Origin: Cryptosporangium phraense | GTDB taxonomy: Bacteria > Actinomycetota > Actinomycetes > Mycobacteriales > Cryptosporangiaceae | Direction of reading: 5' to 3' | DNA length: 64,000 nucleotides | NCBI RefSeq assembly: GCF_006912135.1 | Contig: NZ_VIRS01000001.1 | Coordinates: 310,001 to 374,000 of the forward strand | In this document: positions 5,396 to 64,000 of the stretch, one piece after another | How the letters are laid out: each line of letters begins with the position of its first letter | Position numbering within the stretch: the stretch's first letter is position 1 | Translations under genes and position numbers: made by a program | Notes under the pieces: model-generated | The model's input: only the letters and a program-made list of their open reading frames with translations | Databases searched by the model: none | Told to the model about the DNA's origin: nothing

Positions 5396-5410
5396 GTCTC
5401 AAGTTGAGAC
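5396..5410. promoter_or_regulatory. Palindromic operator candidate for the prm operon
   Basis: GTCTCAA-G-TTGAGAC is a perfect inverted repeat with 7-bp arms, 122 nt upstream of the prmA start and 77 nt from the start of the divergent MimR-like activator. It is the clearest dyad in the 213-nt intergenic region 5320-5532. Binding by the activator is inferred from position only. Confidence 0.5.
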
Positions 5411-5532
5411 CTGCGTCACCGCATTTCGGGGTTGGAATCTCTGGCATCCGGAACGGCGGCCTCCCCGGGCAAGACGGAGGGCCGACTGCGACGCCGCTCG
5501 GAGACCGTCATCCGTCCGAGGGAGCTCACCGC

Positions 5533-7170: not shown

Positions 7171-7173
7171 GCC

Positions 7174-7210
7174 GATCGCGGCGCGGCCCGGGCCGGGCCG
7201 CGCCGCGATC
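7174..7210 (+). promoter_or_regulatory. 17-bp perfect hairpin between prmA and prmB
   Basis: Arms 7174-7190 and 7194-7210 are perfect reverse complements (gatcgcggcgcggcccg), separated by GGC. There is no T-run after it, and the prmB ribosome site (GAGGGG) follows directly. A role in mRNA processing, 3' protection of prmA message or partial attenuation is inferred. Confidence 0.7.
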
Positions 7211-7222
7211 CGAGGGGATCCC

Positions 7223-8257: not shown

Positions 8258-8265
8258 GGACACCG

Positions 8266-9354
8266 ATGACTCAACGCACGTTCCCGAAGCCGGAGTTCAC
8301 CGGCGCGGAGGCCGGCCTCCTGACGTTTCCCGGTTCGACGAGCCGGGCCTACAACTACTTCACCCCCCGCAAGCTGCGGGCCACGGTCTACGAGGACGTC
8401 ACGATGGACGTCCAGCCCGACCCGGAGCGGCACCTCACCCAGGGCTGGATCTACGGCTTCGCGGACGGCCCGGGCGGCTACCCGCAGGAGTGGACCGCGC
8501 TGAAGTCGTCCGACTGGCACCAGTTCCTCGACCCGAACGAGGAATGGGAACAGACGATCTACCGCAACAACAGCAACATCGTCCGGCAGATCTCGCTGAA
8601 TCTGGAGAACGCCAAGAAGGCCGGCGCCTACCAGGCCTGGTCACCGGGCTGGACGCACTTCATCGAGCGGCACCTCGGCGCCTGGATGCACGCCGAGCAC
8701 GGGCTCGGCATGCACGTGTTCCTGTCCGAGCAGCGCTCGGCGCCGACGAACATGATCAACAACGCGATCGCGGTGAACAGCGCGCACAAACTGCGGTTCG
8801 CCCAGGATCTGGCGCTCTACAACCTCGACCTGTCGGAGTCGAGCCTCCCGTTCGACGGCAAGGCCCACAAGGCGGTCTGGCAGAGCGAGCCGGTCTGGCA
8901 GCCGGTGCGCGAGAACGTCGAGCGGCTGACCGCGATCCGCGACTGGGCCGAGTCGCTGTTCGCCGCGAACATCGTCTACGAGCAGCTGGTCGGCGCGCTG
9001 TTCCGGAGCCACCTGGTGATGCAGGTCGCCGCCCGCAACGGCGACTACGTGACGCCGACGCTGGTCGGCGCGGGCGAGAACGACTACGACCGCGACCTGC
9101 GCTACACCCGGGCCCTGTTCAAGATGCTCACCGGCGACGAGACTCACGGCACCGACAACAAGGCCGTGCTGAACGGCTGGCTCTCGGCCTGGGTGCCGGT
9201 CAGCGTCCGGGCCGCGCACGACCTGCAGCCGATCTGGTCGCAGATCCCGGAGAAGCCGGTCACGTTCGCCGACTCCTGGCACGCGTCGACCGAGTCGTTC
9301 CGGAATGTGCTCGATGAACTCGGGCTGGACGAGCCGAAGGAGCTGACCCAGTGA
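8266..9354 (+). CDS. prmC: Propane monooxygenase hydroxylase small subunit
   Basis: 362 residues, PrmC/MimC beta subunit of the hydroxylase, structurally related to the large subunit but without diiron ligands. The ATG at 8266 is preferred because AGGA lies just upstream; an in-frame ATG at 8254 overlaps the prmB stop (ATGA) and would add four residues. Conserved family stretches include [20 protein letters not shown] and the NDYDRDL region near the C terminus. It forms the hydroxylase dimer core with PrmA. The stop overlaps the GTG of prmD, which suggests translational coupling. Confidence 0.95.
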
Positions 9355-9701
9355 CCGCCCCGTCGAAATTCGCCGTCAACCGGACGACGTCCAACATGGC
9401 CGGCGTCACGCTGATGAACAACCAGAACGGCTACGTGGTCGCCGACGTCATGCGCACCAAGGACGGCGTCACGGTCGAAGAGTTCCCGTCGATGATCCGC
9501 GTCGACGGCGAACGGGTGCTGACGTTCGACTACGACGAGATCAGCGACGCGATCGGCTTCGAGTTCGACCAGTCGGACTTCGAGGAGATCATGTCGACCC
9601 ACTACGGGCGCATGGTCCACCTCGACGACAAGACGATGCTGTTCGCCAACCCCGAGGACGCGGCCGAGTACATCGACTTCGACCTCGCGCCGGTGAACTG
9701 A
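9351..9701 (+). CDS. prmD: Propane monooxygenase coupling protein
   Basis: 116 residues, matching the MmoB/DmpM-type effector family in size and in the sequence around [12 protein letters not shown]. The cofactorless coupling protein binds the hydroxylase and tunes oxygen and substrate access to the diiron site. The GTG start overlaps the prmC stop (GTGA). Gene order A-B-C-D is the one known from Gordonia, Rhodococcus and Mycobacterium. Confidence 0.95.
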
Positions 9702-9709
9702 CTCGTTCC

Positions 9710-9734
9710 GGCCCGGCCGCCCGGCGGCCGGGCC
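9710..9734 (+). promoter_or_regulatory. 12-bp hairpin between prmD and the alcohol dehydrogenase
   Basis: GGCCCGGCCGCC at 9710-9721 pairs with GGCGGCCGGGCC at 9723-9734. No U-tract follows, so a full terminator is unlikely; partial termination or protection of the prmABCD message is inferred. It occupies much of the 67-nt gap. Confidence 0.55.
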
Positions 9735-9768
9735 GCCCCTTACCGCGACCACCGAGGGGAGCACGCCA

Positions 9769-10794
9769 ATGAGAGCCGTGCAACTGTCCCGGTACGACAC
9801 CTCACCCGTCCTGACCGAGGTACCCGAACCCACGATCACCGGCCCCCTGGACGTCGTCGTCCGGATCGGTGGCGCCGGGGTCTGCCGCACCGACCTGCAC
9901 GTCATCGAGGGCCAGTGGCAGCAGAAGTCCGGGGTGACCCTCCCCTACACGCTCGGCCACGAGAACGCCGGCTGGGTCCACGCGGTCGGTCCCGCGGTCA
10001 CGAACGTGTCCGTCGGCGACCCGGTGATCCTGCACCCGCTCGCGACCTGCGGCCTCTGCCCGGCCTGCCGCCTCGGTGACGACGTCCACTGCGAGAACTC
10101 CCGGTTCCCGGGCATCGACAGCGACGGCGGCTACGCCGACCTGCTCAAGACCAACGCCCGCGCCGTCGTGAAACTCGACCACTCCTTGCAGCCCGCGGAC
10201 GTCGCCGCGCTGGCCGACGCGGGCCTGACCGCGTACCACGCCGCTCGCAAGGCCGCGGCCGCGCTCCGCCCGGGGCACAAGGCCGTGATCATCGGCGCCG
10301 GCGGGCTCGGGCACATCGGCATCCAGGTGCTGCGCGCGCTCACGCCGGCCGAGCTGATCGTCGTCGACCGGTCCTGGGAGGCGCTCGGCCTGGCCGAACA
10401 GCTCGGCGCCCAGCACATCGTCGCGTCCGACGGCAGCGAGGTGGACGCCGTCCGCGACCTGACCGACGGGCACGGCGCCGAGGCGGTGCTGGACTTCGTC
10501 GGCGAGGGCGGTGCGGTCGAGGCCGGCCTCGGCATGCTGCGCCGGGCCGGCAACTACTACGTGATCGGGTACGGCGGCGAGCTGCGCGTCCCGATGATCG
10601 ACGTGATCTCGACCGAGGTGAACTTCGTCGGCAACCTGGTCGGCTCGTACACCGACCTGGCCGAGCTGATGGTGCTGGCCGCCGCCGGGGCGGTCACGCT
10701 GCACACCCGCCGGTACCCGCTGTCCTCGTACTCCGACGCCCTCGACGACCTGGATAAAGGCGAGGTCCGCGGCCGCGCCATTCTCGTCCCCTGA
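9769..10794 (+). CDS. Zinc-dependent NAD alcohol dehydrogenase of the prm operon
   Basis: 341 residues, medium-chain dehydrogenase family. Catalytic zinc ligands are Cys39 and the His64-Glu65 pair (LGHENAG). The structural zinc site is Cys94, Cys97, Cys100 and Cys108. The NAD site reads GAGGLGHIG. Alcohol dehydrogenases in this position oxidise the secondary alcohol formed from propane (2-propanol to acetone). That substrate is inferred from location. The start follows GAGGGGAG. Confidence 0.92.
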   Translation: MRAVQLSRYDTSPVLTEVPEPTITGPLDVVVRIGGAGVCRTDLHVIEGQWQQKSGVTLPYTLGHENAGWVHAVGPAVTNVSVGDPVILHPLATCGLCPACRLGDDVHCENSRFPGIDSDGGYADLLKTNARAVVKLDHSLQPADVAALADAGLTAYHAARKAAAALRPGHKAVIIGAGGLGHIGIQVLRALTPAELIVVDRSWEALGLAEQLGAQHIVASDGSEVDAVRDLTDGHGAEAVLDFVGEGGAVEAGLGMLRRAGNYYVIGYGGELRVPMIDVISTEVNFVGNLVGSYTDLAELMVLAAAGAVTLHTRRYPLSSYSDALDDLDKGEVRGRAILVP

Positions 10795-12458
<1,664 letters not shown>

Positions 12459-12459
<1 letters not shown>

Positions 12460-37808: not shown

Positions 37809-39014
37809 TCAGCGGACCACGCCGCCGATCAGCTCTTGGGCCAGGGACAGGACGGTTCCGCGGTGGGCGCCGGTGGCCACCAGGCCGCGTAGGCGGGGCA
37901 GGTGGCGCGGGGCGCCGAAGCCGGCCACCGCCACCAGGCGGTCGCCGGCGAAGTACCCGATCACGGTTCCCCGCACCGGGCCCCCGTCGAGGCCGTCCCC
38001 GATCACCTGGAGCACGTTGTCGGCCAGGTCGGGACGTCCGACGAGCTGGATCTTCAGTCCGAACTGGTCGGACCACACGTACGGGACGCTCGGCGCGGGC
38101 AGCTCCAGCCCGAGGATGTCCCGGGCCACGATCGCCGCCTGATCGACGGTCGTGGTCCAGTGCTCGGTCCGGCACCGGCCGCCGCGCACGTCGTCCCACC
38201 AGGCCGCGACGTCCCCGAGCGCCCACACGCCCGCCGCCCCGACGGCCCGGCCGGTGCGGTCGCAGGCCACGCCGTCTCCGACGTCCAGGCCCGACCCGGC
38301 CAGCCAGCTGAGCTCCGGGGTGGCCCCGATGCCGACCAGCACGATGTCCGCGCTCAGCGTGGACCCGTCGGCCAGTTCGACGGTGTGCGCGTCGACGAAC
38401 CGGCTGATCCGGCTGCCGCAGCGCAGGTCCGCACCGGACTCGGTGAACAGCCGCCCGGCCAGCGCCCCGCCCTCGCGCCCGAGCGCCCGCTCGCACGGTC
38501 CGGGCATCGCCTCGAGCACCGTGACGTCGAGCCCGCGGGCCCGGGCCGCGTGCGCGACCTCGGCCCCGATGAAGCCGCCGCCGACGACGAGCAGCGAGCG
38601 CGAGTTGTCGAGCGCGTCCCGCAGCGCCAGCGCGTCGTCCAGCGTGCGCAGCGACCACACCGCGCCGGGCTGACCGGGGATCGCCCGGGCGGTGACGCCG
38701 GTCGCGATCACCACCGCGTCACCGGCGACCGAGGTCCCGTCGTCGAGACCCACCGTGGTCCCGTTCAGCGACACCGCGGCCGAGCCGAGCCGGTACGTTA
38801 TGTCCAGCTCGTCCAGGGCCGGCTTGTCGCGCAGGATCACCCGCTCGGCGTCCCAGGCGCCGGAGAGGATCTGCTTGGACAGTGGCGGGCGGTCGTAGGG
38901 CGGGTGCTCCTCGGCTCCGATCAGCGTGATCGGTCCCCGGTGCCCGCCGCTGCGCAGCTGCTCCGCAGTCCGGACGCCACCGAGCCCGGCGCCGACGATG
39001 ACGACGTGTTCCAT
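37809..39014 (-). CDS. FAD-dependent ferredoxin reductase
   Basis: 401 residues. N-terminal FAD motif IVGAGLGGVRTAE, NAD motif VVGGGFIGAEVA, and the ALGDVAAW motif contacting FAD, as in rubredoxin/putidaredoxin reductases. It starts 1 nt after the stop of the DUF35-thiolase gene. It is the natural NADH-linked electron donor for the [3Fe-4S] or 7Fe ferredoxin and the two P450s upstream in the same operon. Confidence 0.92.
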   Translation of the reverse strand: MEHVVIVGAGLGGVRTAEQLRSGGHRGPITLIGAEEHPPYDRPPLSKQILSGAWDAERVILRDKPALDELDITYRLGSAAVSLNGTTVGLDDGTSVAGDAVVIATGVTARAIPGQPGAVWSLRTLDDALALRDALDNSRSLLVVGGGFIGAEVAHAARARGLDVTVLEAMPGPCERALGREGGALAGRLFTESGADLRCGSRISRFVDAHTVELADGSTLSADIVLVGIGATPELSWLAGSGLDVGDGVACDRTGRAVGAAGVWALGDVAAWWDDVRGGRCRTEHWTTTVDQAAIVARDILGLELPAPSVPYVWSDQFGLKIQLVGRPDLADNVLQVIGDGLDGGPVRGTVIGYFAGDRLVAVAGFGAPRHLPRLRGLVATGAHRGTVLSLAQELIGGVVR

Positions 39015-46383: not shown

Positions 46384-47195
46384 CTGGAGCTCCTAGCGAG
46401 GGCACGGGCGTGTTCGGGTAAGAGGTCGGCGAGCGCCTGGTGGGCGGCGGCGAGCGCGCCGAGGTCACCGCCGAGCTCGGCGACGACCTGCCGGACGACC
46501 GCGACGTCCTTGCCGACGAACTCGCCGGCGGCTCGAGCGAACGTGCCGACCGACCCGGCGCGGGCGACTCCGCCGAGCGCGTAGCTGTTCGCGCTGCCCT
46601 GCGGTAGGGCGGTGAGCAGCGCTTCCTCGGTGACGCCGAGCTGGGCGCCGAGGTCGACGGCGGCGGCGAGCAGGCCGATGTTCGCGGCGAACAGCGCGTT
46701 GTTGATCAGCTTGACGCGCTGCCCGTTGCCTCGGCCGCCGACGTGCAAGATCGGGTCGCCGTAGCTCCGGAAAATCGGGCGGGCCCGCTCCACCGCCTCG
46801 GAAGCGCCGCCGACCAGCAGCGTGATGTGCCCGGCGAGGATGTCGTGCGGGCCGCCGCTGACCGGCGCGTCGATGACCTCGATACGGTCGCCGAGCGCGT
46901 CCGCGGTGGCCGGGCTGCCGGTCGTGTGCAGGATGAGCAGCGCGCCCGGCCTCATCGCGTCGATGAGGCCCGGAGCGACCTCCTTCACCTGCTCGTCGGT
47001 GTGGACGCAGATCAGCACCGCCTCGGCGCCGTCGGCGACGTCGGCCAGGGTGGGAACCGCGGTCGCACCGTCCGACTCCAGCGCCGCCTTGGCGGCGCCC
47101 GAACGGACCAGGACTTTTACCCGGTGGTCCGCGCCGACCAGACGTTGCACCATCGGGCGCCCCATCCGGCCGGCGCCGACGAAACCGAGTCTCAT
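46380..47195 (-). CDS. 3-hydroxyisobutyrate-dehydrogenase-like NAD(P) enzyme, copy 1
   Basis: 271 residues of the beta-hydroxyacid dehydrogenase family: GFVGAGRMGRPMV, substrate loop DAPVSGGPHDILAGH, and catalytic Lys in RVKLINNALF. Start overlaps the amidohydrolase stop. A second, related copy lies on the other side of the amidohydrolase. Likely acts on a short beta-hydroxy acid or is a reductase; substrate unknown. Confidence 0.9.
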   Translation of the reverse strand: MRLGFVGAGRMGRPMVQRLVGADHRVKVLVRSGAAKAALESDGATAVPTLADVADGAEAVLICVHTDEQVKEVAPGLIDAMRPGALLILHTTGSPATADALGDRIEVIDAPVSGGPHDILAGHITLLVGGASEAVERARPIFRSYGDPILHVGGRGNGQRVKLINNALFAANIGLLAAAVDLGAQLGVTEEALLTALPQGSANSYALGGVARAGSVGTFARAAGEFVGKDVAVVRQVVAELGGDLGALAAAHQALADLLPEHARALARSSR

Positions 47196-48325
47196 GCGGC
47201 GGGGAAGTTGAAGATGCGGCGGGCGTTGCCCTCGACGATCAGCCGGGCCTCGTCATCGGGGACGTTCGCGAGCTGCTCGCCGAGGACCTTGCGGGTGTGC
47301 GGCCAGTTGCAGTCCGAGTGCGGGTAGTCCGACTCGAACAGGATCTGCTCCACGCCGATCGAGTGGCGCAGGTCGATGCCGTTCTGGTCGGAGATGAAAG
47401 CCCCGTAGATGTGGTCCTTGAACAGCTCCGACGGCTTGCGCTCCTGGTCGATGTTGCACCAGTACCGGTGCCGGCCCCACGAGTAGTCGGCCCGCTCGAG
47501 GATGTACGGGATCCACCCGATCCCGCCCTCGGACAGCACGAACTTCAAATTCGGGAACTTGTAGAACACCGGCGAGATCAGCAGATCGACGCAGGCCTGC
47601 ATCGAGTTGAGGCCGAACAGCGCGATCGTCACGAACATGTCGGCGTCCTCGGCGACGCCGCCCGGCGCACCGCCCGACCCGAAGTGCACCGACAGCGGCA
47701 GGTTGCGCTCCTCGGCGGCCCGCAGGATCGGGTCCCAGTGATCGGTGTGGTAGCTCGGCAGCCCCACCCGGTGCGGAGCCTCCAGGAACGACACCGACCG
47801 GGCGCCCTTGTCGGCCGTCCGCTCGATCTCCTTCACCGAGGCCTGCACGTCCCAGAACGGGATCATCACCAGCGGGATCTGCCGGCCCGGCGCGTACGCG
47901 CACCACTCGTCGAGAATGAAGTCGTTGTAGGCGCGGATGCACTCCGCGGCCAGGTCCTTGTCGTCGGAGGCGTAGAACGTCGAGCCGGCGAAGCCGCCCA
48001 TGTTCGGGAAGCAGAGCTGGGCCCAGACGCCCTCGACGTCCATGTCCTTGATGCGCTGCTCGATGTCGTGGCAGCCCGGGCGCATGTCGTCGTAGCTGCG
48101 CGGGTCCATCCCGAACTCGCGCGGGTGCTTTCCGGCCACCGCGTTCAGCGCGAAGTTGCCGGACGGCTTGCCGTTGAAGATCCAGGTGTCGTTGCCGTCG
48201 GGCAGCCGCTCGATGCGCGGAGCGACGTCCTGGTACTTCGCCGGCATTCGGTCGAGCCAGACCCGGGGGTGCTCGATGACGTGGTCGTCGACCGAGATGA
48301 TCCTGGCGTCGTCGGGGAGCGGCAT
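47192..48325 (-). CDS. Amidohydrolase-2 family TIM-barrel protein
   Basis: 377 residues. N-terminal metal-site motif SVDDHVIE, His in SVHFGSGG, and the C-terminal FESDYPHSD with the catalytic Asp. The family includes decarboxylases such as ACMSD and C-C hydrolases rather than true amidases. Start at the ATG 48325; an upstream open frame is the neighbouring gene in another frame. Two relatives lie at 57.9-60.0 kb. Confidence 0.88.
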   Translation of the reverse strand: MPLPDDARIISVDDHVIEHPRVWLDRMPAKYQDVAPRIERLPDGNDTWIFNGKPSGNFALNAVAGKHPREFGMDPRSYDDMRPGCHDIEQRIKDMDVEGVWAQLCFPNMGGFAGSTFYASDDKDLAAECIRAYNDFILDEWCAYAPGRQIPLVMIPFWDVQASVKEIERTADKGARSVSFLEAPHRVGLPSYHTDHWDPILRAAEERNLPLSVHFGSGGAPGGVAEDADMFVTIALFGLNSMQACVDLLISPVFYKFPNLKFVLSEGGIGWIPYILERADYSWGRHRYWCNIDQERKPSELFKDHIYGAFISDQNGIDLRHSIGVEQILFESDYPHSDCNWPHTRKVLGEQLANVPDDEARLIVEGNARRIFNFPAA

Positions 48326-48336
48326 GTGCGTGCCTC

Positions 48337-49149
48337 CTAACGGGGGTTGTGCATCGATTGGAGAGCCGAGTCGGCGGCGGGGAGCACCACTCCGGGATCC
48401 ACGCCGGCCGCCGCGGCCAGGTCGACCGCGAGCCGCGCGTCCTTGGCCAGCAGCGGCCCGGCGACCTCGGCCATCCGCGAGGCCGAGAACGGCTCGCTCG
48501 ACAGCAGCAGCGAGGCCGCGAAGCTGTTGCCGCTGCCCGCGGCGAACACCCGGTTGAGCGAGGCCAGGTCGACGCCGAGCTCGCGGCCCAACGCGTAGGC
48601 GGCCTCGGCGACCCCGAGGTTCGCGGTCAGCAGCAGGTTGTTGAGGATCTTCGCGGCCTGCCCGGCCCCGACCGGCCCGAGGTGCAGGAGCGGGTTCGCG
48701 AACGTCTCGAAGATCGGCCTCACGGTCTTCAGGGCGTCCGCGTCGCCACCGGCCATCACGAGCAACCGGCGTTCGGCGGCGGCCTGGCCTCCCCCGCTGA
48801 CCGGCGCGTCGATCACCGCGACGCCCCGGGCGGCGGCCTGCTCGGCCAGCGTCCGGCAGGTGTCCGGGTGCACGGTGCTGTGCACCACGATCACCCCGCC
48901 CTCGGCGAGGCCGTCGATCATGTGCGCGCCGACCTCCCGCACCCCTTCGTCGTCGAGGACGCACAGGCAGACGACGTCCGACGCCTTGGCCAGCGCTTCC
49001 GGCGAGTCGGCGTAGGCGGCTGACGTGTCCCGATACGGCTCCAGCGTCTCGGGGCGGCGAGCCCACAGCGTCGTCGGGAAACCGTCCTCGACGACCCGGC
49101 GGGCCATCGGGCCGCCCTGGGAGCCGACGCCGATCCACCCCACCCTCAC
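48337..49149 (-). CDS. 3-hydroxyisobutyrate-dehydrogenase-like NAD(P) enzyme, copy 2
   Basis: 270 residues: GWIGVGSQGGPMA, DAPVSGGGQAAAERR, Lys in AAKILNNLLL. The GTG at 49149 overlaps the stop of the CoA-transferase gene (GTGA). It is homologous to copy 1 but well diverged; the residue before the first substrate loop differs. They flank the amidohydrolase. Confidence 0.9.
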   Translation of the reverse strand: MRVGWIGVGSQGGPMARRVVEDGFPTTLWARRPETLEPYRDTSAAYADSPEALAKASDVVCLCVLDDEGVREVGAHMIDGLAEGGVIVVHSTVHPDTCRTLAEQAAARGVAVIDAPVSGGGQAAAERRLLVMAGGDADALKTVRPIFETFANPLLHLGPVGAGQAAKILNNLLLTANLGVAEAAYALGRELGVDLASLNRVFAAGSGNSFAASLLLSSEPFSASRMAEVAGPLLAKDARLAVDLAAAAGVDPGVVLPAADSALQSMHNPR

Positions 49150-56058: not shown

Positions 56059-56078
56059 CGGAACAGATGTTTGGTTCG
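56059..56078 (+). promoter_or_regulatory. 20-bp shared motif, copy 1
   Basis: CGGAACAGATGTTTGGTTCG, matching the motif at 57859-57878 in 17 of 20 positions. It contains GGAAC and GGTTC half-sites and lies 60 nt before the Rieske oxygenase start, consistent with an operator or promoter common to the cluster. Confidence 0.6.
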
Positions 56079-56137: not shown

Positions 56138-57547
56138 GTGACTGTTGCTGATCTCAACCCCAAGTTCACCTGGGCCGAGGGGGACGAGGCGCCGCTCGGC
56201 ACCAACCCGCCGGAGGTCCAGGCCAAGGTCCCGCACCCGATGCGCGACTCCCGGTTCGTGCCGAAGGAGCGCTACTACTCGCGCGAGTTCTTCGAGCTCG
56301 AGAAGAAGTACCTCTGGCCGCACACCTGGCTGATGGCCGCCCGCGAGGAAGAGATCCCGAACCCCGGCGACTACGTCGAGTACGAGATCGCCGGCACGTC
56401 GATCCTGATCGTGCGTCAGCGCGACCGGACGGTCAAAGCCCTGCACAACGTCTGCCGGCACCGCGCGACCGAGCTCGCCAAGGGTCAGGGACGCCTGCCC
56501 GGCGGCCAGCTCGTCTGCCCGTTCCACGGCTGGCGCTGGAACCTCGACGGCTCGTCGTCGTTCGTGTTCGGCGAGAAGGCGTTCGAGCCGGCCTGCCTCA
56601 ACCAGGACGACCTGGCCCTACGCGAGTGCCTCGTCGAGCTGTGGGCGGGCATGGTCTGGATCAACATGGACCTGGGCGCGCGGCCGCTGAGCGACCACCT
56701 CGACCCGGTGCAGAAGCTGCTCGACGGCGTCGGCGTCGGCAACATGCGGGTCAAGTGGTGGAAGCAGGTCGTCCTCAACGCGAACTGGAAGATGGCCCAG
56801 GAGGCGTTCTTCGAGGGCTACCACGTCACCCAGACTCATCCGCAGCTGCTGATGGGCGGCGACGAGGAGTACGGCGAGCTGAAAGCGGCCCAGGTCGCCT
56901 ACACGACGTTCAAGAACGGCCACGCCCGGTTCCAGAGCGCGAGCAAGGGTGATGCCGAGTACGAGCCGGTCTTCGACTCCGAGGAGTTCATCGAGGCCGG
57001 TCGGCTGCTCGTCACCGGCCAGGACGCGATGACGCTGGAGAACGACCTGCGGATCTTCGAGGGCCTGCGCAACAAGATCCCGCAGGACGACCCGAAGTTC
57101 ACCCAGGCCGCGATCGCCGCGCTCTACGAGTACGCCGAGGGCGCGGGCATCCCGATGGCGCCGATGGGCCCGGCGATGCAGCTGTGGGGCGGAGACATCT
57201 ACATGTTCCCGAACTACCTGATGCTGCCGATGTACGGAAACTGCCTGGCCTACCGGTCGCGCCCGTACAAGGACGACCCGGAGTGGTGCATCTTCGACGT
57301 CTGGTCGCTGACCACCTACCCGGTGGGCCAGGAGCCGGAGCGGGCCGAGCTCACGGGCGTATTCGACAAGGACGACACCGAGAACTGGGGCTTGATCCCG
57401 CGCCAGGACTTCAGCAACATCGAGCGCCAGCAGCGGGGCCTGCACTCCCCCGGGTTCACCGAGCTGCGCCTGTCGTCGCAGTACGAGCTGTCGATCAGCA
57501 ACATGCACGAGGAACTCGACCGGCAGATCGCGAGCCGGGCCGAGTAG
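56138..57547 (+). CDS. Rieske non-heme iron oxygenase, large subunit
   Basis: 469 residues. Rieske ligands Cys106, His108, Cys127, His130; mononuclear iron ligands His229 and His234 in FFEGYHVTQTH, with a later acid as the third ligand. The GTG at 56138 is preceded by GAAGGGG. No small subunit is adjacent, suggesting an alpha-only enzyme. Electrons likely come from the adrenodoxin-type or Rieske ferredoxins encoded in the cluster. Ring or side-chain hydroxylation is the general role; substrate unknown. Confidence 0.92.
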   Translation: MTVADLNPKFTWAEGDEAPLGTNPPEVQAKVPHPMRDSRFVPKERYYSREFFELEKKYLWPHTWLMAAREEEIPNPGDYVEYEIAGTSILIVRQRDRTVKALHNVCRHRATELAKGQGRLPGGQLVCPFHGWRWNLDGSSSFVFGEKAFEPACLNQDDLALRECLVELWAGMVWINMDLGARPLSDHLDPVQKLLDGVGVGNMRVKWWKQVVLNANWKMAQEAFFEGYHVTQTHPQLLMGGDEEYGELKAAQVAYTTFKNGHARFQSASKGDAEYEPVFDSEEFIEAGRLLVTGQDAMTLENDLRIFEGLRNKIPQDDPKFTQAAIAALYEYAEGAGIPMAPMGPAMQLWGGDIYMFPNYLMLPMYGNCLAYRSRPYKDDPEWCIFDVWSLTTYPVGQEPERAELTGVFDKDDTENWGLIPRQDFSNIERQQRGLHSPGFTELRLSSQYELSISNMHEELDRQIASRAE

Positions 57548-57852
57548 TGGCCCGGGTGCGGGTCGAGCCGTCCGGAGTGGAGTTCGACGTCGGCCCGGCG
57601 GAGTCGGTCGCGGAGGCGGCCTGGCGGCAGGACGTCACCTGGCCGACGAAGTGTTACGGCCAGGCCGAATGCATGGTGTGTTTCGTCAAGGTGGTCGACG
57701 GTGAGCTGTCGACCGTGCCGCCGGACGACGACGAGCTCCACGCCATGCGCACCAAGATGCCCCGCCGCCTCCGGACGCCTCTGACCCGCCTCGCCTGCCG
57801 CCTGCGCGTCACGGGCGACGGCGTGGTCCTGGAGAAGAAGGGCGTCAACTGA
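57547..57852 (+). CDS. [2Fe-2S] ferredoxin, adrenodoxin-like spacing
   Basis: 101 residues. Ligand pattern Cys36-x5-Cys42-x2-Cys45 and Cys84, the spacing of adrenodoxin/Isc-type rather than plant-type ferredoxins. The GTG shares the G of the oxygenase stop. Likely electron donor of the Rieske oxygenase. Basic region PRRLRTPLTRLACRL contains the last ligand. Confidence 0.85.
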   Translation: MARVRVEPSGVEFDVGPAESVAEAAWRQDVTWPTKCYGQAECMVCFVKVVDGELSTVPPDDDELHAMRTKMPRRLRTPLTRLACRLRVTGDGVVLEKKGVN

Positions 57853-57858
57853 CCTGCT

Positions 57859-57878
57859 CGGAACAAACGTTAGGTTCG
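57859..57878 (+). promoter_or_regulatory. 20-bp shared motif, copy 2
   Basis: CGGAACAAACGTTAGGTTCG, ending 3 nt before the first amidohydrolase start. TAGGTT (57871-57876) inside it could be a -10 box of a leaderless transcript, which would make the motif part of the promoter. Confidence 0.6.
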
Positions 57879-57881
57879 CCC

Positions 57882-58922
57882 ATGCCGCTCATCGACGCGA
57901 GCGTCCACATCTTCTTCCGCGACAACCGTGACCTGCGGAGTTTCCTCCGCGAGCCGTACGCGAGCCGGGGCTTCCCCGACTACGAGATGGACTGGTACGG
58001 CGCGCCCGGCGGCGAGTACGTGCCCGGCTCCGACGACGCCGGGTACCCGGGCTCCGACCCCGAGACCGTCGCCGCGCACGTCTTCGGCTACGCGGACGTC
58101 GCCGTGCTCCACCCGATGACCCGCGGCACGCTCCCCGATCGGCACCTCACGTCGGCGGTGCTGGCTGCCCACAACGCGATGCTCGTGCAGCGCTGGCTGC
58201 CGCACGACGAGCGGTTCCGCGGCACGATCCGCGTCAACCCGGAAGACCTGCCGGGCGCCGTCCGCGAGATCGAGAAGTACGCCGACCACCCGCAGGTCGT
58301 GCAGGTGGGCGTCCCCCTGCAATCGCGGGAGCTGTACGGGAAGCCGCAGTTCTGGCCGCTCTGGGAGGCCGCGCAGGCGGCCGGCCTCCCGGTCGCGGTG
58401 CACGTGGAGACCGGGCAGGGGGTGGGGTACCCGCCCACGCCGTCGGGTCACCCGCGCACCTACGAGAACTACCTCGGCTTCGCGGCCCTCAACTACCTGT
58501 ACCACCTGATGAACATGATCGCCGAGGGCGTCTTCGAGCGCTTCGACGCGCTCCGGTTCGTCTGGTCCGAGGGCGCCGCCGACTTCCTCACGCCGTTCAG
58601 CTGGCGCATGGACGTCTTCGGCCGGCCCCACCTGGAACAGACCCCGTGGGCTCCGCGGATCCCCAGCGACTACCTGCCCGGCCACACGTACTTCGTGCAG
58701 GGCGCTCTCGACGGTCCCGGTGACGTCGGCTACGCCGACGAATGGCTGAGCTTCACCGGCAAGGACCGGATGGTCCTGTTCGGGTCCAGCTATCCGCACT
58801 GGCAGAACGCCCGGGCGGACGCTCTGCCGAGCGCGCTCTCGGCCGAACAGCGCGACCGCGTCCTCTGGCGCAACGCCGCCGAGCTGTACGGCATCTCCGT
58901 CCCGGAAGGAGTTACGCCATGA
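57882..58922 (+). CDS. Amidohydrolase-2 family protein, first of pair
   Basis: 346 residues. N terminus PLIDASVHIFFR with an atypical D-x3-H arrangement, His in AVHVETGQG, and FGSSYPHW at the C-terminal metal/acid site where the usual Asp is replaced by Ser. If that is the catalytic acid position, hydrolysis may be impaired and the protein could be a partner of the next gene. The stop overlaps the next start (ATGA). Confidence 0.85.
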   Translation: MPLIDASVHIFFRDNRDLRSFLREPYASRGFPDYEMDWYGAPGGEYVPGSDDAGYPGSDPETVAAHVFGYADVAVLHPMTRGTLPDRHLTSAVLAAHNAMLVQRWLPHDERFRGTIRVNPEDLPGAVREIEKYADHPQVVQVGVPLQSRELYGKPQFWPLWEAAQAAGLPVAVHVETGQGVGYPPTPSGHPRTYENYLGFAALNYLYHLMNMIAEGVFERFDALRFVWSEGAADFLTPFSWRMDVFGRPHLEQTPWAPRIPSDYLPGHTYFVQGALDGPGDVGYADEWLSFTGKDRMVLFGSSYPHWQNARADALPSALSAEQRDRVLWRNAAELYGISVPEGVTP

Positions 58923-60037
58923 TCCCCAGTACCGCGCAGGTACCGGTCCGGGTCGTCGACTCGGACGTGCACCCGGTCCCCCGGGCCGGAGCCATCGCCG
59001 AGTACATCCCGGACGAGTGGCGGAAGTTCGCGCTCTCGCACCGGGTCGGCGACACGATCAACTACGACGCCCCGGACTACGCCCACGCCTACGCGATGCG
59101 CGTCGACACGTTCCCGGCCGACGGCGGCTTCCCCGGCAGCGACCCGGACACGATGTTCAAGCAGTTGATCATCGAGGCCGGCTCGGACATCGCGATCCTC
59201 GAGCCGGCGTCGAAGTTCACCCGCATTCCCGAGGCCACCTCGGCGATGGCCACCGCGACGAACGAGTGGCTGGCCAACCACTGGCTGGACAGCCGCAACA
59301 ACTGGCACCAGCGCTGGCGCGGCTCGATCTGCGTCGCGATCGAGGACCCCTCCGGCGCGGCGCGGGAGATCGAGAAGTGGGTCGGGCACCCGTACATGGC
59401 CCAGGTGCTGATCAAGGCCGAGCCGCGGCCGTCCTGGGGCGACCCGAAGTACGACCCGGTGTGGGAGGCGGCGACCCGGCACGACATCACGGTCAGCTGC
59501 CATCTCTCCCGCGGCAACTACGAGACGATGCCGATGCCGCCGGTCGGGTTCCCCAGCTACAACCACGACTTCATGGTCACGTACTCGCTGCTGGCCGCGA
59601 ACCAGGTCATGAGCCTGATCTTCGACGGGGTGTTCGACCGGTTCCCGTCGCTGCGCATCGTGCTGGTCGAGCACGCGTTCACCTGGATCCTGCCGCTGAT
59701 GTGGCGGATGGACGCGATCTACGCGGCCCGTCGCTCGTTCACCGGGCTCAAGCGGAAGCCGTCGGAGTACGTCAAGGAGCACATCAAGTTCACCACCCAG
59801 CCGCTGGACTACCCGGAGGACAAGACCGAGCTGACCCGGGCGCTGGAGTGGATGGAGGCCGAGAAGATCCTGCTGTTCTCGTCGGACTACCCGCACTGGA
59901 CCTTCGACGACCCGAAGTGGCTGCTCAAGCACCTGCCGGAGCACGCCCGCGAGGCGGTCATGTTCAAGAACGGCCTGTCGACGTACAAGCTGCCGTCCAC
60001 CGTGCCGGCCGTCGAATCGCAGACCCGTGTCTGGTGA
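58919..60037 (+). CDS. Amidohydrolase-2 family protein, second of pair
   Basis: 372 residues. VVDSDVHPVP at the N terminus (D-x-H), SCHLSRGN with the next His, HAFTWILPLMWRMD, and FSSDYPHW with the intact catalytic Asp. Related to the preceding protein and to the one at 47.2 kb. The family contains decarboxylases and C-C bond hydrolases; in a Rieske oxygenase cluster, processing of an oxygenation product is likely. Confidence 0.88.
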   Translation: MIPSTAQVPVRVVDSDVHPVPRAGAIAEYIPDEWRKFALSHRVGDTINYDAPDYAHAYAMRVDTFPADGGFPGSDPDTMFKQLIIEAGSDIAILEPASKFTRIPEATSAMATATNEWLANHWLDSRNNWHQRWRGSICVAIEDPSGAAREIEKWVGHPYMAQVLIKAEPRPSWGDPKYDPVWEAATRHDITVSCHLSRGNYETMPMPPVGFPSYNHDFMVTYSLLAANQVMSLIFDGVFDRFPSLRIVLVEHAFTWILPLMWRMDAIYAARRSFTGLKRKPSEYVKEHIKFTTQPLDYPEDKTELTRALEWMEAEKILLFSSDYPHWTFDDPKWLLKHLPEHAREAVMFKNGLSTYKLPSTVPAVESQTRVW

Positions 60038-60416
60038 ACCCGCGCCCCGGCTCGCCCAGGGCCGGGAGCACGCGGTGGCGTCGGTCGACGAGATCCCGCC
60101 CGGGGCGTTCAAGATCGTGCCGATCGGGCGGCACGGCGTGGGGGTCTACAACGTCGGCGGGACGTTCTACGCGATCGCCAACTACTGCCCACACGAGGGC
60201 GGCCCGCTCTGCCGGGGCCGGGCCCGGGGGCGGACGGTCGTCGACGAGAGCGTGCCCGGCGACGCGGTGATGGTGCGCGACCTGGAGTTCATCTACTGCC
60301 CGTGGCACCAGTGGGGATTCGAGCTCGCGACCGGCACCACGGCGGTGAAACCGGAATGGAGCATTCGCACGTACCCGGTGCGCGTGGTCGGCACCGACGT
60401 TCTCGTGACGGCGTGA
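60027..60416 (+). CDS. Rieske-type ferredoxin
   Basis: 129 residues. Ligands Cys54/His56 (YCPHEGG) and Cys91/His94 (YCPWHQW). The two halves are 34 residues apart, roughly twice the usual spacing, with a Gly/Arg-rich insert (GRARGRTVVDE). The GTG lies within the preceding gene by 11 nt. Small stand-alone Rieske ferredoxins deliver electrons to Rieske oxygenases. Confidence 0.9.
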   Translation: MSGEPAPRLAQGREHAVASVDEIPPGAFKIVPIGRHGVGVYNVGGTFYAIANYCPHEGGPLCRGRARGRTVVDESVPGDAVMVRDLEFIYCPWHQWGFELATGTTAVKPEWSIRTYPVRVVGTDVLVTA

Positions 60417-60424
60417 GGAGCGCG

Positions 60425-61279
60425 ATGGAAATCAACGGTGGAAATGTCGTCCACGAGATTCTCGGGTCGTCCGGGGAATTGGTCGTGCTCACGCCGGGCG
60501 GACGATTCAGCAAGGACATCGAGGGACTCCGCCCGCTCGCCGAGGCATTGGTCGAGGGCGGCAAGCGGGTATTGCTGTGGGACCGGCCGAATTGCGGCGC
60601 GTCGGACGTGCAGTTCTACGGACGGACCGAGTCGCACATGCGGGCGGAAACTCTGAAAGGATTGTTGACCGCTCTGGGCGAGGGTCCGTGCGTGATCGCG
60701 GGCGGGTCCGGCGGGGCGCGGGACTCGATACTCACCGTGATGCTCTACCCGGAACTGGCCACCAGGCTCGTCGTCTGGAACATCGTCGGCGGGGTGTTCG
60801 GCTCGTTCAGCCTCGGCGCCTACTACGTCGTCCCGAGCATCCAGGCCGTGCTGGCCAAGGGCATCGACGGGCTGTTCGACCTGCCCGAGTGGCAGGCGCT
60901 GATCGCGGCGAACCCGGCCAACGAGGCCCGGCTGCGCGCGCTCGACAAGGACGAGTTCCTGCAGTTGATGCTGCGCTGGCTCGACGCGTACGTGTCGAAG
61001 CCGGGCCAGACGATCCCCGGCGTGGAGGACCTCGACTTCGCCGGGATCCGGGTGCCGACGCTGATCATCCGCGGCGGCCGGGACGACCGGCACCACCCGA
61101 AGCGGACGTCGCTCGAGGTCAGCTGCCTGATCGAGAACAGCGAGCTGGTCGACCCACCGTGGCCCGAGGACGCCTGGGAGCGCGCGACCGAGGACCGCGC
61201 GGCCGGCCGGGTCGATCACTACAACATGTTCGACACCTGGGTGCAGGCCGCGCCGCTGATCCTGAAGTTCCTCAGCTGA
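60425..61279 (+). CDS. Alpha/beta hydrolase, MhpC-like
   Basis: 284 residues. TPGGRFSKD oxyanion region, nucleophile Ser in AGGSGGARDS, an acid in IRGGRDDRHHP, and a likely catalytic His near VDHYNMF. Size and order recall meta-cleavage product hydrolases. The ATG at 60425 lies 8 nt after the Rieske ferredoxin stop. Convergent with the next gene by an 8-nt overlap. Confidence 0.85.
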   Translation: MEINGGNVVHEILGSSGELVVLTPGGRFSKDIEGLRPLAEALVEGGKRVLLWDRPNCGASDVQFYGRTESHMRAETLKGLLTALGEGPCVIAGGSGGARDSILTVMLYPELATRLVVWNIVGGVFGSFSLGAYYVVPSIQAVLAKGIDGLFDLPEWQALIAANPANEARLRALDKDEFLQLMLRWLDAYVSKPGQTIPGVEDLDFAGIRVPTLIIRGGRDDRHHPKRTSLEVSCLIENSELVDPPWPEDAWERATEDRAAGRVDHYNMFDTWVQAAPLILKFLS

Positions 61280-61724
61280 CGATGAGCCGCACCTCGGCGT
61301 TGAGCGCGGCCTCGAGCGCGGTCTGGACCCGGCTCTCCGGGATCCGGGCCAGGTCGGCGCTCGCCAGCCGGACCTCGACGACGTCCCACCCGTCGTCGTC
61401 GAGGCTCCGGGTCACCTCTCCGGACAACCCGAACCCGGCCAGGACGCCGAGCGCGTCGTCGTCGGTACCGCGGCTCAGATAGGTCACGACGCCTCTGGCC
61501 GGGGGCACCCCGAAGGCCCGCTCGCAGATCGCGCTGGTGGTGCCGTGCATCACGGCCGGGTCGTCGCCGGTGATCAGGAATTGCAATTCCGGGCGGCCGG
61601 GGTCGATTTCGGTGCGGACGAATTCGTGGCCCTCGGCCGCGAGCCTTTCCACTCCGGCGCGGAGAGCCGGGGCGGACAGTTCTCCGCGCGGATCGACGTT
61701 GATGCGCACCACCGCAGTTCTCAT
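61272..61724 (-). CDS. Hypothetical protein beside the NuoF-like gene
   Basis: 150 residues, alternating hydrophobic beta strands (VVRINVDPRGE; VRTEIDPGRPELQFLITGD). No recognised domain. It begins with the ATG at 61724, divergent from the NuoF-like gene by 31 nt. Only GGAGG one nt before the ATG is seen, so the start could also be the nearby GTG downstream. Confidence 0.65.
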   Translation of the reverse strand: MRTAVVRINVDPRGELSAPALRAGVERLAAEGHEFVRTEIDPGRPELQFLITGDDPAVMHGTTSAICERAFGVPPARGVVTYLSRGTDDDALGVLAGFGLSGEVTRSLDDDGWDVVEVRLASADLARIPESRVQTALEAALNAEVRLIVS

Positions 61725-61755
61725 GCCTCCAGAGTATGCACAGAACGGGTACCCG

Positions 61756-62952
61756 ATGGAATCGTTGACCACTCGAACCCGAATCGAGCCGGGACGGTTG
61801 CTCTCCGCCGACGCCGCCGTTCCGGAAGCATTGCCGGAACGGGAGGCGCTGCTCGATCTCGTCGACGAATCGGGGTTGCTCGGGCGGGGCGGGGCGGCGT
61901 TCCCGCTCGGGGTGAAGCTGCGGTCGGTGCGGGCCGGGAAGCGCACCCCGGTCGTGATCGCCAACGGCGAGGAGGGCGAGCCGATGTCCATCAAGGACCG
62001 CTGGCTCCTCCGCCACCGACCGCACCTGGTGCTGGAGGGGCTCCGCCTGGCCGCGCACGCGGTGGGCGCGGACGCGTCGTACGTCTACGTGTCGGACGCC
62101 GGCGCGGCCGTCGCCGTCCGGACCGCGGCCGACGCCGGGGTCGACGTGGTGGAGGTCGCGCCCACCTACGTGGCCGGAGAGGAGACCGCGGCCGTGCGGG
62201 CGGTGAACGGAGGGCCAGCGCGGCCGTCCGACAAGCCACCCCGCCCGTACGAGGAGGGCGTCGGCGGACGTCCGACGCTGGTCAGCAACGTCGAGACGCT
62301 GGCCCAGCTGGCCTACCTGGTCCGGCACGGCGCGCCGGCGTTCCGCTCGCTCGGCACGCCGGGATCGCCGGGCACGTTCCTGGCCACGGTCAGCGGCGCG
62401 GGCCGCGCGGCCCTGTACGAACTCCCGCACGGGCTGCCGTTCGGCGCGCTCCTGGAACGTCACGGGGTCGACCCCGACCTCGTGCGGGGCGCGCTGCTGG
62501 GCGGCTACTTCGCGGGCCTGATCAACCGGCGGGTCCTCGACCTCACCCTCGACCACGAGACCGCCCGCCGTTTCGACACCGGGCTCGGCTGCGGCGCGAT
62601 CGCCGTGCTGACCGGCGTCGACTGTCCGGTCGCCGTGGCCGCGTCGGTGATGGCCTACTTCGACCGGGAGAACGCCGGCCAGTGCGGCTCGTGCTTCAAC
62701 GGCACCGCGGCGATGAGCGCGGTCACCGCCGCCCTTCGCGACGGCGTCGCCGAGCAGACCGACGTCGACCGGCTGACCCGCTGGTCGGTGGTGCTGCGCG
62801 GCCGGGGTGCCTGCGGCACCCTCGACGGCGCCACGAACGTCGCCGCGTCGCTCCTGCGCGAATTCCCGTCCGAGGTCGCCGAGCACCTGCGCGGGGGCTG
62901 TACCGGCCCCGCCTACCACGCCGACCGGCCGTTCGAGGTGACGCTCCCGTGA
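61756..62952 (+). CDS. Stand-alone NuoF-like NADH-binding flavoprotein
   Basis: 398 residues. The FMN/NADH fold of complex I subunit F is clear: LLGRGGAAFPLGVKL, VIANGEEGEPMSIKDR, LVSNVETLAQLAYLV. The iron-sulfur region has Cys310, Cys313 (QCGSCFNG) and Cys353 (GACGTLD), with Gly at the third Cys position of NuoF; Cys382 could replace it. No other complex I genes are present. It probably passes electrons from NADH to the adjacent ferredoxin. Confidence 0.88.
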   Translation: MESLTTRTRIEPGRLLSADAAVPEALPEREALLDLVDESGLLGRGGAAFPLGVKLRSVRAGKRTPVVIANGEEGEPMSIKDRWLLRHRPHLVLEGLRLAAHAVGADASYVYVSDAGAAVAVRTAADAGVDVVEVAPTYVAGEETAAVRAVNGGPARPSDKPPRPYEEGVGGRPTLVSNVETLAQLAYLVRHGAPAFRSLGTPGSPGTFLATVSGAGRAALYELPHGLPFGALLERHGVDPDLVRGALLGGYFAGLINRRVLDLTLDHETARRFDTGLGCGAIAVLTGVDCPVAVAASVMAYFDRENAGQCGSCFNGTAAMSAVTAALRDGVAEQTDVDRLTRWSVVLRGRGACGTLDGATNVAASLLREFPSEVAEHLRGGCTGPAYHADRPFEVTLP

Positions 62953-63149
62953 GGATCAAGCTGGACCGGACGATCTGCGACGGGTTCGGCATCTGCGCCG
63001 AGCGCGCGCCCGACCACTTCTCGCTCGACGACTGGGGCTACGCCTCGCTGGTCGGCAACGGCGACGTCCAGGAGCACGACGAGAACGACGTCCGGCGCGC
63101 GCTGCTGGACTGCCCGGTGCACGCGATCGTCGAGCTCCCTCGCGAGTGA
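62949..63149 (+). CDS. [3Fe-4S] ferredoxin beside NuoF-like protein
   Basis: 66 residues. Ligands Cys10, Cys16 (C-x5-C) and Cys55 in DCPVHA; Gly13 occupies the position that is often Cys or His. Starts at GTG overlapping the NuoF-like stop. This coupling argues that it is the direct acceptor of the NuoF-like flavoprotein. Confidence 0.92.
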   Translation: MRIKLDRTICDGFGICAERAPDHFSLDDWGYASLVGNGDVQEHDENDVRRALLDCPVHAIVELPRE

Positions 63150-63221: not shown

Positions 63222-64000
63222 GTGAACCGACCGCTGGTGTCCGAGCGAGCCACCGAGGGCGCCCGTCGGTCCGAGATCCTGGAGATCGCCTCGCGGCTGT
63301 TCGCGGCCTCCGGCTACTCGCGCACCTCGCTCAAGGACGTCGCCGAGGCCTGCGGGATCCTGCCCGGCAGCCTGTACCACCACTTCGACTCCAAGCAGGC
63401 GATCGCCACCGAGCTGCTCGAGCGCTACCACGCCGAGCTGGACGCGATCGGCCGCCGGTGGCTGGAGGCACCGCCGCTCGGGCCCGAGGTCCGGACCGCC
63501 GACCGGGTGATCGCGCTCGGCGTCGCGCTGGCCGAGTGCGGGGTGCGCCACGGCGCCGCCCTGCAGCTCTCCGCCTACGAGCCGCACGCCGGGGCGTCCG
63601 CCGATCTGGTCGAGCTGGCCCGGCGGCCGCACGGCGGCATCACCGCGGCCATGCACCGGGTGCTCACCGACGGCGCGGACCGCGGCGACCTCGTCGACCG
63701 CGTCGACCTCGACCTGCTCGCCGACCAGACCTGCCAGACGATGCTGCACGTCGGGCTGGCCCGCCTGCACCAGGGCGGCACGCCCGCGGCGATCGCGGCG
63801 CTGCTGTGCACGATGCTGCTCTACGGCGTCGCGGTGCGGGCCCCGGCCGACCGGGTACTCAACCGCTCGGCGGCGATGGGCGCGGCCTCGGCCACGATCG
63901 CCCAGTGGTCGTCGGACCCGGACGACGACGCCGACGAGCGGCGGGCCGCCCTGCGCGCGGTGGCCCGGGCCGAGTTCGCCCGGCGCGGCTACGAGGCGAC
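63222..64000 (+). CDS. TetR-family regulator, partial, probably with two TetR domains
   Basis: 259 codons visible before the window ends. First TetR helix-turn-helix: SLKDVAEACGILPGSLYHHFDSKQAI (about 39-64), then a full C-terminal ligand domain. Near the window edge a new sequence begins, RRAALRAVARAEFARRGYEAT, which has the look of helix 1 of a second TetR DNA-binding domain. Double-TetR regulators occur in actinobacteria. The GTG start has no ribosome site. Confidence 0.85.
   Translation, partial: MNRPLVSERATEGARRSEILEIASRLFAASGYSRTSLKDVAEACGILPGSLYHHFDSKQAIATELLERYHAELDAIGRRWLEAPPLGPEVRTADRVIALGVALAECGVRHGAALQLSAYEPHAGASADLVELARRPHGGITAAMHRVLTDGADRGDLVDRVDLDLLADQTCQTMLHVGLARLHQGGTPAAIAALLCTMLLYGVAVRAPADRVLNRSAAMGAASATIAQWSSDPDDDADERRAALRAVARAEFARRGYEA

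Follow-up and report, generated by a model that had tools for sequence, protein, structure and literature searches.

We analysed a 64,000-nucleotide stretch (hereafter the window) on contig 1 of the 8.46-Mb genome of Cryptosporangium phraense, towards the end of which lies a run of genes for putative oxygenases and several electron carriers. The run begins with a Rieske non-heme iron oxygenase alpha subunit (56138-57547, plus strand; 469 amino acids; PF00355 and PF00848). It is followed by a [2Fe-2S] Fer2 ferredoxin of the adrenodoxin/putidaredoxin type (57547-57852, plus strand; 101 amino acids; PF00111, C-X5-C-X2-C...C), the start of whose gene overlaps the stop codon of the oxygenase gene at 57547. 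Next come two PF04909 proteins: AH1 (57882-58922, plus strand), an AibH1-like, predicted non-catalytic oxygenase subunit, and AH2 (58919-60037, plus strand), an AibH2-like, predicted catalytic dinuclear-metal subunit identified by PDB matches and six ligands. The AH2 gene overlaps by 11 bases that of a Rieske ferredoxin, AibG-like in its predicted role (60027-60416, plus strand; PF00355). The alpha/beta hydrolase that follows (60425-61279, plus strand) matches PF12697 weakly (28.7 bits, cut-off 26.3) and is syntenic in relatives. Beyond a minus-strand gene for a conserved protein without known family (61272-61724; 77 sequences aligned), which is divergent from NuoF, are a solitary NuoF-like flavin mononucleotide (FMN)/NADH protein (61756-62952, plus strand; PF01512 and PF10589) and a [3Fe-4S]-type single-cluster ferredoxin (62949-63149, plus strand; PF13459/PF13370, CxxFxxC...CP), whose genes overlap by 4 bases.

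A preliminary description of this DNA had reported a Rieske oxygenase, an adrenodoxin-type ferredoxin, an unusual Rieske ferredoxin, and a NuoF-like protein that forms a coupled unit with a [3Fe-4S] ferredoxin, besides two amidohydrolases and a hydrolase. Every gene it named is present, as borne out by the Pfam matches, motifs, and gene overlap, but the core of the system was misjudged. The minus-strand gene between the hydrolase and NuoF was absent from that account. Two genomes of the same genus (L190 and L191) have all nine genes in unchanged order, at 72-93% identity, and the set is therefore not a chance assembly.

AH1 and AH2 are normally labeled “amidohydrolases” but are most likely an oxygen-activating enzyme fed from NADH. 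The class of amidohydrolase-related dinuclear oxygenases (AROs) is defined in the accessible text of PMC10811679. Among solved structures, AH2 is closest to the ARO 8sm7 (217 bits) and to AibH2 (6m1w_B; 181 bits), while the best decarboxylase scores 54 bits. AH1 also matches 8sm7 (156 bits), followed by AibH1 (6m1w_A; 132 bits) and AibH2 (6m1w_B; 93 bits). At the level of sequence, the two resemble an AibH1H2-type pair, with AH1 nearer to AibH1 and AH2 nearer to AibH2 among the PDB matches. AH2 carries equivalents of all six ligands of the AibH2 dinuclear site: D25, H27, H211, E265, D337, and H340 of AibH2 align with D16, H18, H195, E251, D323, and H326 of AH2. In an alignment of 97 sequences, these are conserved in 95/95 (D16), 95/95 (H18), 96/97 (H195), and 97/97 (E251, D323, and H326) cases; two rows are gapped at the first two ligands, and the odd rows are the contig-cut L070 and one AH2 row of L075. 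As a PF04909 protein nearer to AROs than to decarboxylases, AH2 can be placed by sequence in the ARO class, and the gene run to which it belongs includes the small Rieske ferredoxin expected of an ARO. Aspartate occurs at neither of the two Asp-ligand positions of AH1 in any of 88 sequences, where serine is the commonest residue (S7 in 78, S303 in 80). AH1 therefore looks non-catalytic and AibH1-like, and even poorer in ligands than AibH1 itself. The preliminary description had the two amidohydrolases process the product of the Rieske oxygenase; we reject this role in view of the PDB homology and the six metal ligands of AH2, and the pair is better read as oxygenase subunits.

The window encodes a third PF04909 protein (47192-48340, minus strand). 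Among solved structures it scores highest against DitZ (250 bits) and PtmU3 (152 bits). Four of the ligand positions are occupied by His, Glu, Asp, and His, and an Asp-Asp-His sequence lies close to the remaining two, so that this protein may be a second, different ARO.

The Rieske ferredoxin is distinguished by a long spacer of 34 residues between CxH and CxxH. Its C54, H56, C91, and H94 are at least 98.5% conserved across 94 aligned sequences. The small protein at 61272-61724 has no Pfam or NCBIfam match at E ≤ 0.01. Its structural model is confident (predicted local distance difference test [pLDDT] 91.9), and a Foldseek search of the PDB gave no confident fold match (best E 2.7e-3).

The NuoF-like protein lacks one cysteine of its iron-sulfur cluster. 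Complex I NuoF has Cys-x2-Cys-x2-Cys and a fourth Cys (cluster N3); in the window protein, Ala307 replaces the first of these. We find alanine at this position in 80/80 aligned sequences (79 from ARO-type oxygenase clusters and one Rieske-linked, L086), all of which keep C310, C313, and C353. The glycine-rich motifs GRGGA.FP and NGEEGEP, which we take to be the FMN/NADH motifs, are intact. Two other NuoF proteins in the same genome (L011 and L012) keep the first cysteine. A long frame on contig 17 (L099, the same gene as L012) encodes the third NuoF-like protein of the genome, with all four cluster cysteines. We considered whether the gene is a stray complex I subunit and rejected this, because the genome has two further NuoF proteins with all four cysteines. 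No NuoE- or NuoG-type protein occurs among the ten neighboring proteins scanned (56-64 kb), and such partners were not searched for elsewhere.

NuoF proteins without the first cysteine form a distinct clade. The Ala-x-Gln-Cys form is found beside AROs, beside Rieske oxygenases, beside MsrQ-like/ApbE clusters, and elsewhere, whereas the canonical NuoF proteins listed, two of the same genome among them, retain the first cysteine. In a tree of 49 NuoF rows, the alanine form makes up one side of a branch (100/99), and three rows first labeled as canonical NuoF (L031, L033, and L036) fall inside this clade and have the alanine motif. Fifteen oxygenase-linked rows (12 ARO and 3 Rieske) group together at 97/95, the 12 ARO rows among them at 100/98; the fourth Rieske-linked NuoF, L105, is basal on a long branch. 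The nearest relatives of the protein outside ARO clusters adjoin Rieske oxygenases (L086, L087, and L104). On Rhodococcus plasmids (L104 and L105), NuoF and a ferredoxin lie beside Rieske oxygenases, accompanied by a permease, or by a beta subunit and an isochorismatase-type hydrolase. On other plasmids of Rhodococcus and Cnuibacter (L106-L109), NuoF of the same clade and a ferredoxin lie beside a ferric-reductase-like membrane protein and an FAD:protein FMN transferase (FAD, flavin adenine dinucleotide).

The association of NuoF with AH1 and AH2 recurs within one order. Genomes were drawn evenly from this order for the searches: 397 for AH2 and for the Rieske oxygenase, and 348 for NuoF. AH2 orthologues occur in 49/397 genomes (E ≤ 1e-80) and NuoF in 48/348 (E ≤ 1e-90), 47 of which have an AH2 orthologue at most 2.85 kb away. 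The 48th (G631) has a 51-53% NuoF and ferredoxin beside two 30% AH2 matches and a 49% Rieske ferredoxin. PF04909-type oxygenase genes are thus adjacent in all 48 NuoF genomes, as is the Rieske ferredoxin wherever the locus was read. G650 and G665 are the two AH2 genomes that lack a NuoF row, yet NuoF is present at the loci read (L151 and L186). In mycobacteria and Nocardia, the genes again stand in the order AH1-AH2-Rieske ferredoxin-hydrolase-(divergent small gene)-NuoF-ferredoxin; in a Phytohabitans variant the hydrolase comes first, and the small divergent gene was not detected. In two other families (G372, locus L193; G804, locus L223), AH2, the Rieske ferredoxin, NuoF, and its ferredoxin are consecutive on one strand; at both loci, with the ATG starts chosen, the NuoF gene shares 4 bases with that of the Rieske ferredoxin.

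Loci fetched through AH2 give the same picture. Among 60 such loci, 38 have AH1 and a Rieske ferredoxin at ≥58% AH2 identity, and NuoF with its ferredoxin is present in 38/38. Loci fetched through NuoF are biased for NuoF and were counted apart: 35 of 40 are complete, L070 breaks off before AH1, and in four others (L053, L059, L069, and L079) the contig ends ahead of AH2. The other two of the 42 loci (L083 and L085; proteobacterial, 29-31%) matched none of AH1, AH2, and the Rieske ferredoxin and were excluded from the count. In total, 59 AH2 places have ≥58% identity, of which 52 were read and 7 judged by coordinates only.

Some AH2-related genes lie in other settings. Eight solo AH2 copies (74-77% identical; L162, L164, L167, L168, L170, L173, L177, and L178) have no AH1, Rieske ferredoxin, or NuoF nearby; all eight genomes have a NuoF-adjacent AH2 elsewhere (by locus or coordinates). 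A paralogous Rieske ferredoxin-AH1-AH2 set (43-46%; L196-L209) lies near a cytochrome P450 (P450) without NuoF, and none of the reductase types looked for was found in its vicinity. AH-like genes and a Rieske ferredoxin carried by plasmids of Rhodococcus jostii and Sinorhizobium fredii instead adjoin a PDR/VanB-annotated reductase.

The Rieske oxygenase is a rarer second oxygenase, an optional addition to the ARO cluster: it has orthologues in 4/397 genomes at E ≤ 1e-90 (its own, the two of the same genus, and G372), compared with 49/397 for AH2. A fifth orthologue, in G804 (L223), was met via its Rieske ferredoxin and not via the Rieske oxygenase search. The oxygenase and its [2Fe-2S] ferredoxin lie beside the ARO cluster in all five. 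The best PDB match of the Rieske oxygenase is the oxygenase subunit of carnitine monooxygenase (residues 41-237). For the [2Fe-2S] ferredoxin, the PDB yields only weak matches (E 0.0016-0.009), ISC-type ferredoxin and putidaredoxin among them.

Two operator-like sites link the Rieske oxygenase to the ARO cluster. One lies upstream of the Rieske oxygenase gene (56060-56078, plus strand; GGAACANAYGTTNGGTTCG, exact, with 1 mismatch in L190 and L191), and the other, with the same 19-base pattern, upstream of AH1 (57860-57878, plus strand; exact in L190 and L191). The pattern was derived from these two sites, so that counting it there is circular. L192, L193, L195, and L223 have weaker sites before AH1, the hydrolase, or the Rieske oxygenase, with AH1 being the gene preceded in L193, L195, and L223; sites with 4 mismatches are also found where no role is likely (window position 38070 and L150). 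A TetR-family protein (63222-63998, plus strand; PF00440; its frame runs past the window end) is a candidate regulator of these sites, and a relative of it lies near the cluster in L190-L193, L195, and L223. Because the operator-like site is shared, the Rieske oxygenase is probably co-regulated with the ARO cluster. We also considered a single operon from the Rieske oxygenase through the hydrolase; this reading was lowered, as the two gene runs are each preceded by a separate operator-like site.

We suggest that this segment probably encodes a catabolic ARO-type monooxygenase in which AH1 and AH2 form the hydroxylase, and NuoF with its ferredoxin supplies NADH electrons in the place of AibF. 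Its counterpart is the 2-aminoisobutyrate monooxygenase AibH1H2 of Rhodococcus wratislaviensis, a heteromeric TIM-barrel monooxygenase that the accessible text of PMC7782822 and PMC10401708 describes as fed by the Rieske ferredoxin AibG and the FMN reductase AibF, an NADH-preferring FMN diaphorase (PMC7782822). In the window, hydride from NADH would pass to the FMN of the NuoF-like protein, and electrons would move through its remaining three-cysteine cluster to the [3Fe-4S] ferredoxin. From there they would reach the Rieske ferredoxin and then AH2, whose dinuclear Mn/Fe or Fe/Fe site would activate O2 and hydroxylate a C-H bond of the substrate. The Rieske oxygenase and [2Fe-2S] ferredoxin would be a second, co-regulated oxygenase of the same pathway. 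The preliminary description had drawn a chain from NADH through the NuoF-like protein and ferredoxin to the oxygenase. This chain is supported by genomics, mainly for the amidohydrolase-type oxygenase: synteny ties NuoF to AH1 and AH2, not mainly to the Rieske oxygenase.

Several observations weigh against an ARO fed by NuoF. NuoF is not a general ARO partner, being found with 0/8 solo AH2 copies and at 0/14 loci of the 43-46% paralogue group, and it was not seen at 8/8 more distant AH2-like loci whose Rieske ferredoxin matches at 30-41%. The loci come mostly from mycobacteria and are not independent of one another. In the window, the opposite-strand gene separates NuoF from the AH1-AH2-Rieske ferredoxin-hydrolase run, and NuoF has no operator-like site before it. 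The AlphaFold model of AH2 is poor (pLDDT 60.5, 8 sequences) and was not used, leaving the fold assignment to sequence only. The genome also has conventional FAD reductases, with 5 matches at E ≤ 1e-30 to the protein at 37809-39014, itself included. Finally, P450s are frequent neighbors: among 96 AH2 loci (101 minus 5 duplicates; near-copies remain), 19 have a relative of P450a/P450b (≥400 bits) within 8 kb, and 35 have a P450 motif within 6 kb. The ferredoxin group with CxxFxxC...CP is a known partner of P450s, its examined members holding [3Fe-4S] clusters, according to the accessible part of PMC6237146.

A P450 of the pathway is nevertheless an unlikely destination for electrons from NuoF. 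A P450 adjoins AH1 in Nocardia loci and lies near many mycobacterial ones, and the ferredoxin motif fits such a partner. However, no P450 was detected in the stretches read of L192-L195 and L223, where NuoF stays with AH1, AH2, and the Rieske ferredoxin. At the 14 paralogue loci, moreover, a P450 motif lies within 6 kb but NuoF is absent. The P450 was lowered as the main NuoF partner on account of L192-L195 and L223. We consider it still more improbable that NuoF and the [3Fe-4S] ferredoxin are the reductase of the Rieske oxygenase while the amidohydrolases process its product, as the preliminary description held. All five Rieske oxygenase orthologues lie beside the cluster, and more distant NuoF proteins, from two Rhodococcus plasmids and two same-class genomes, likewise have Rieske oxygenases as neighbors, with a ferredoxin detected each time (in L087 by BLAST match, not motif search). 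The oxygenase-linked NuoF proteins also branch together, with L105 apart. Against this, a Rieske oxygenase match at E ≤ 1e-90 is lacking in 45/49 AH2 genomes, and AH1 and AH2 are far nearer to ARO subunits than to decarboxylases.

The source of electrons for the Rieske oxygenase could go either way: it may draw on the NuoF supply or on an ordinary reductase of the FAD type, whose gene lies at a distance of 17 kb. The preliminary description had found no conventional ferredoxin reductase. This holds for 56-63 kb, and by Pfam no conventional reductase lies beside the Rieske oxygenase among the proteins of 56-64 kb, but it does not hold for the genome, nor for the window, which encodes one at 37809-39014 (minus strand; PF07992 and PF14759, Pyr_redox_2 and Reductase_C). 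An AibF-type reductase with its own [2Fe-2S] domain is likewise absent from the ten proteins of 56-64 kb, and from the vicinity of AH2 in L190 and L191. It is conceivable, at somewhat less than even chances, that two chains run in parallel, with the FAD reductase passing electrons through the [2Fe-2S] ferredoxin to the Rieske oxygenase, and NuoF serving AH1 and AH2 only. The weak match of this ferredoxin to putidaredoxin is consistent with such a route, as is the position of the reductase within the window. Reductase relatives also lie near the cluster in both genomes of other families that have the Rieske oxygenase (41%, ~2.5-3.5 kb from the hydrolase and AH1 genes in G804; 43%, ~9-12 kb away in G372). 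In the same-genus genomes, however, the reductase orthologue is >80 kb away (G318) or on another contig (G327). NuoF and its ferredoxin might instead feed both oxygenases, with the Rieske ferredoxin docking to AH1/AH2 and the [2Fe-2S] ferredoxin to the Rieske oxygenase, an option that we also hold to be plausible without favoring it. The operator-like site common to both oxygenases, their tandem arrangement on one strand in L193 and L223, and the occurrence of the NuoF clade beside both oxygenase kinds argue for a shared supply. Relatives of the FAD reductase in 7/7 genomes tested argue against it, and electron flow to the [2Fe-2S] ferredoxin is hypothetical.

The proposed ARO-type monooxygenase supplied by NuoF shares features with several known systems. 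Like AibH1H2-AibG-AibF as described in the accessible literature, the window has a pair of PF04909 subunits, of which one carries all six ligands of the site, followed by a small Rieske ferredoxin and a predicted NADH reductase. It differs in that the reductase is a NuoF-like protein with a [3Fe-4S] ferredoxin and not AibF, that AH1 is without two of AibH1's five ligands, and that the set is linked to a Rieske oxygenase. SfbO and the other AROs 8SM6-8SM9 share with the window an adjacent Rieske ferredoxin gene, and 8sm7 is the best match of AH2; unlike the window pair, they are described as individual PF04909 proteins in the accessible text of PMC10811679. The words “NuoF”, “NADH”, and “flavoprotein” are absent from the main text of that paper. 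Like complex I NuoF and HydB/HoxF-type subunits, the window NuoF belongs to the 51-kDa family and has FMN- and NADH-binding motifs and three of the four cluster cysteines, whereas its first cluster cysteine is alanine and it has its own small ferredoxin gene. NuoF of MsrQ-like flavinylation clusters (PMC8238504, accessible part) is similar in having a small ferredoxin gene and plasmid examples in the same Ala-x-Gln-Cys clade, but the presumed electron acceptor in those clusters is a haem protein of the membrane and no oxygenase. This statement was the only related one among the papers listed in literature searches on NuoF with an oxygenase, Rieske protein, P450, or ferredoxin reductase, and a literature search for the genes of the cluster in combination found nothing. 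A NuoF-based NADH supply for an ARO-type enzyme is thus not described in the papers that are searchable.

The wider window has further genes for oxidative metabolism. A soluble diiron monooxygenase alpha subunit (PF02332) and its Fer2/FAD reductase lie within 5404-12459 and are followed there by a second hydroxylase-like subunit, a zinc alcohol dehydrogenase-like protein, and a GroEL-like protein, the last three recognized from their sequences alone. Given the soluble diiron monooxygenase, P450s, acyl-CoA dehydrogenases, and a thiolase-like fusion, the wider window is likely to be a multi-step catabolic island.

More tentatively, the solitary NuoF clade that lacks one cluster cysteine, and that typically comes with a [3Fe-4S]-type ferredoxin gene, might be a distinct class of NADH:ferredoxin reductase for oxygenases. 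This would be a complex I input module recruited for AROs and Rieske oxygenases, here for both from one supply under one operator. In the window NuoF, the N3 site of complex I is represented by a variant with three cysteines, which could be characterized apart from complex I, and the proposed electron chain is directly testable. AROs are a young enzyme class, and their members are commonly annotated as hydrolases; gene order offers a means of spotting further AROs and NuoF-fed oxygenases. The putative ARO described here is conserved in many mycobacteria, Nocardia, and other actinobacteria, and its electron supply would be new for oxygenases.

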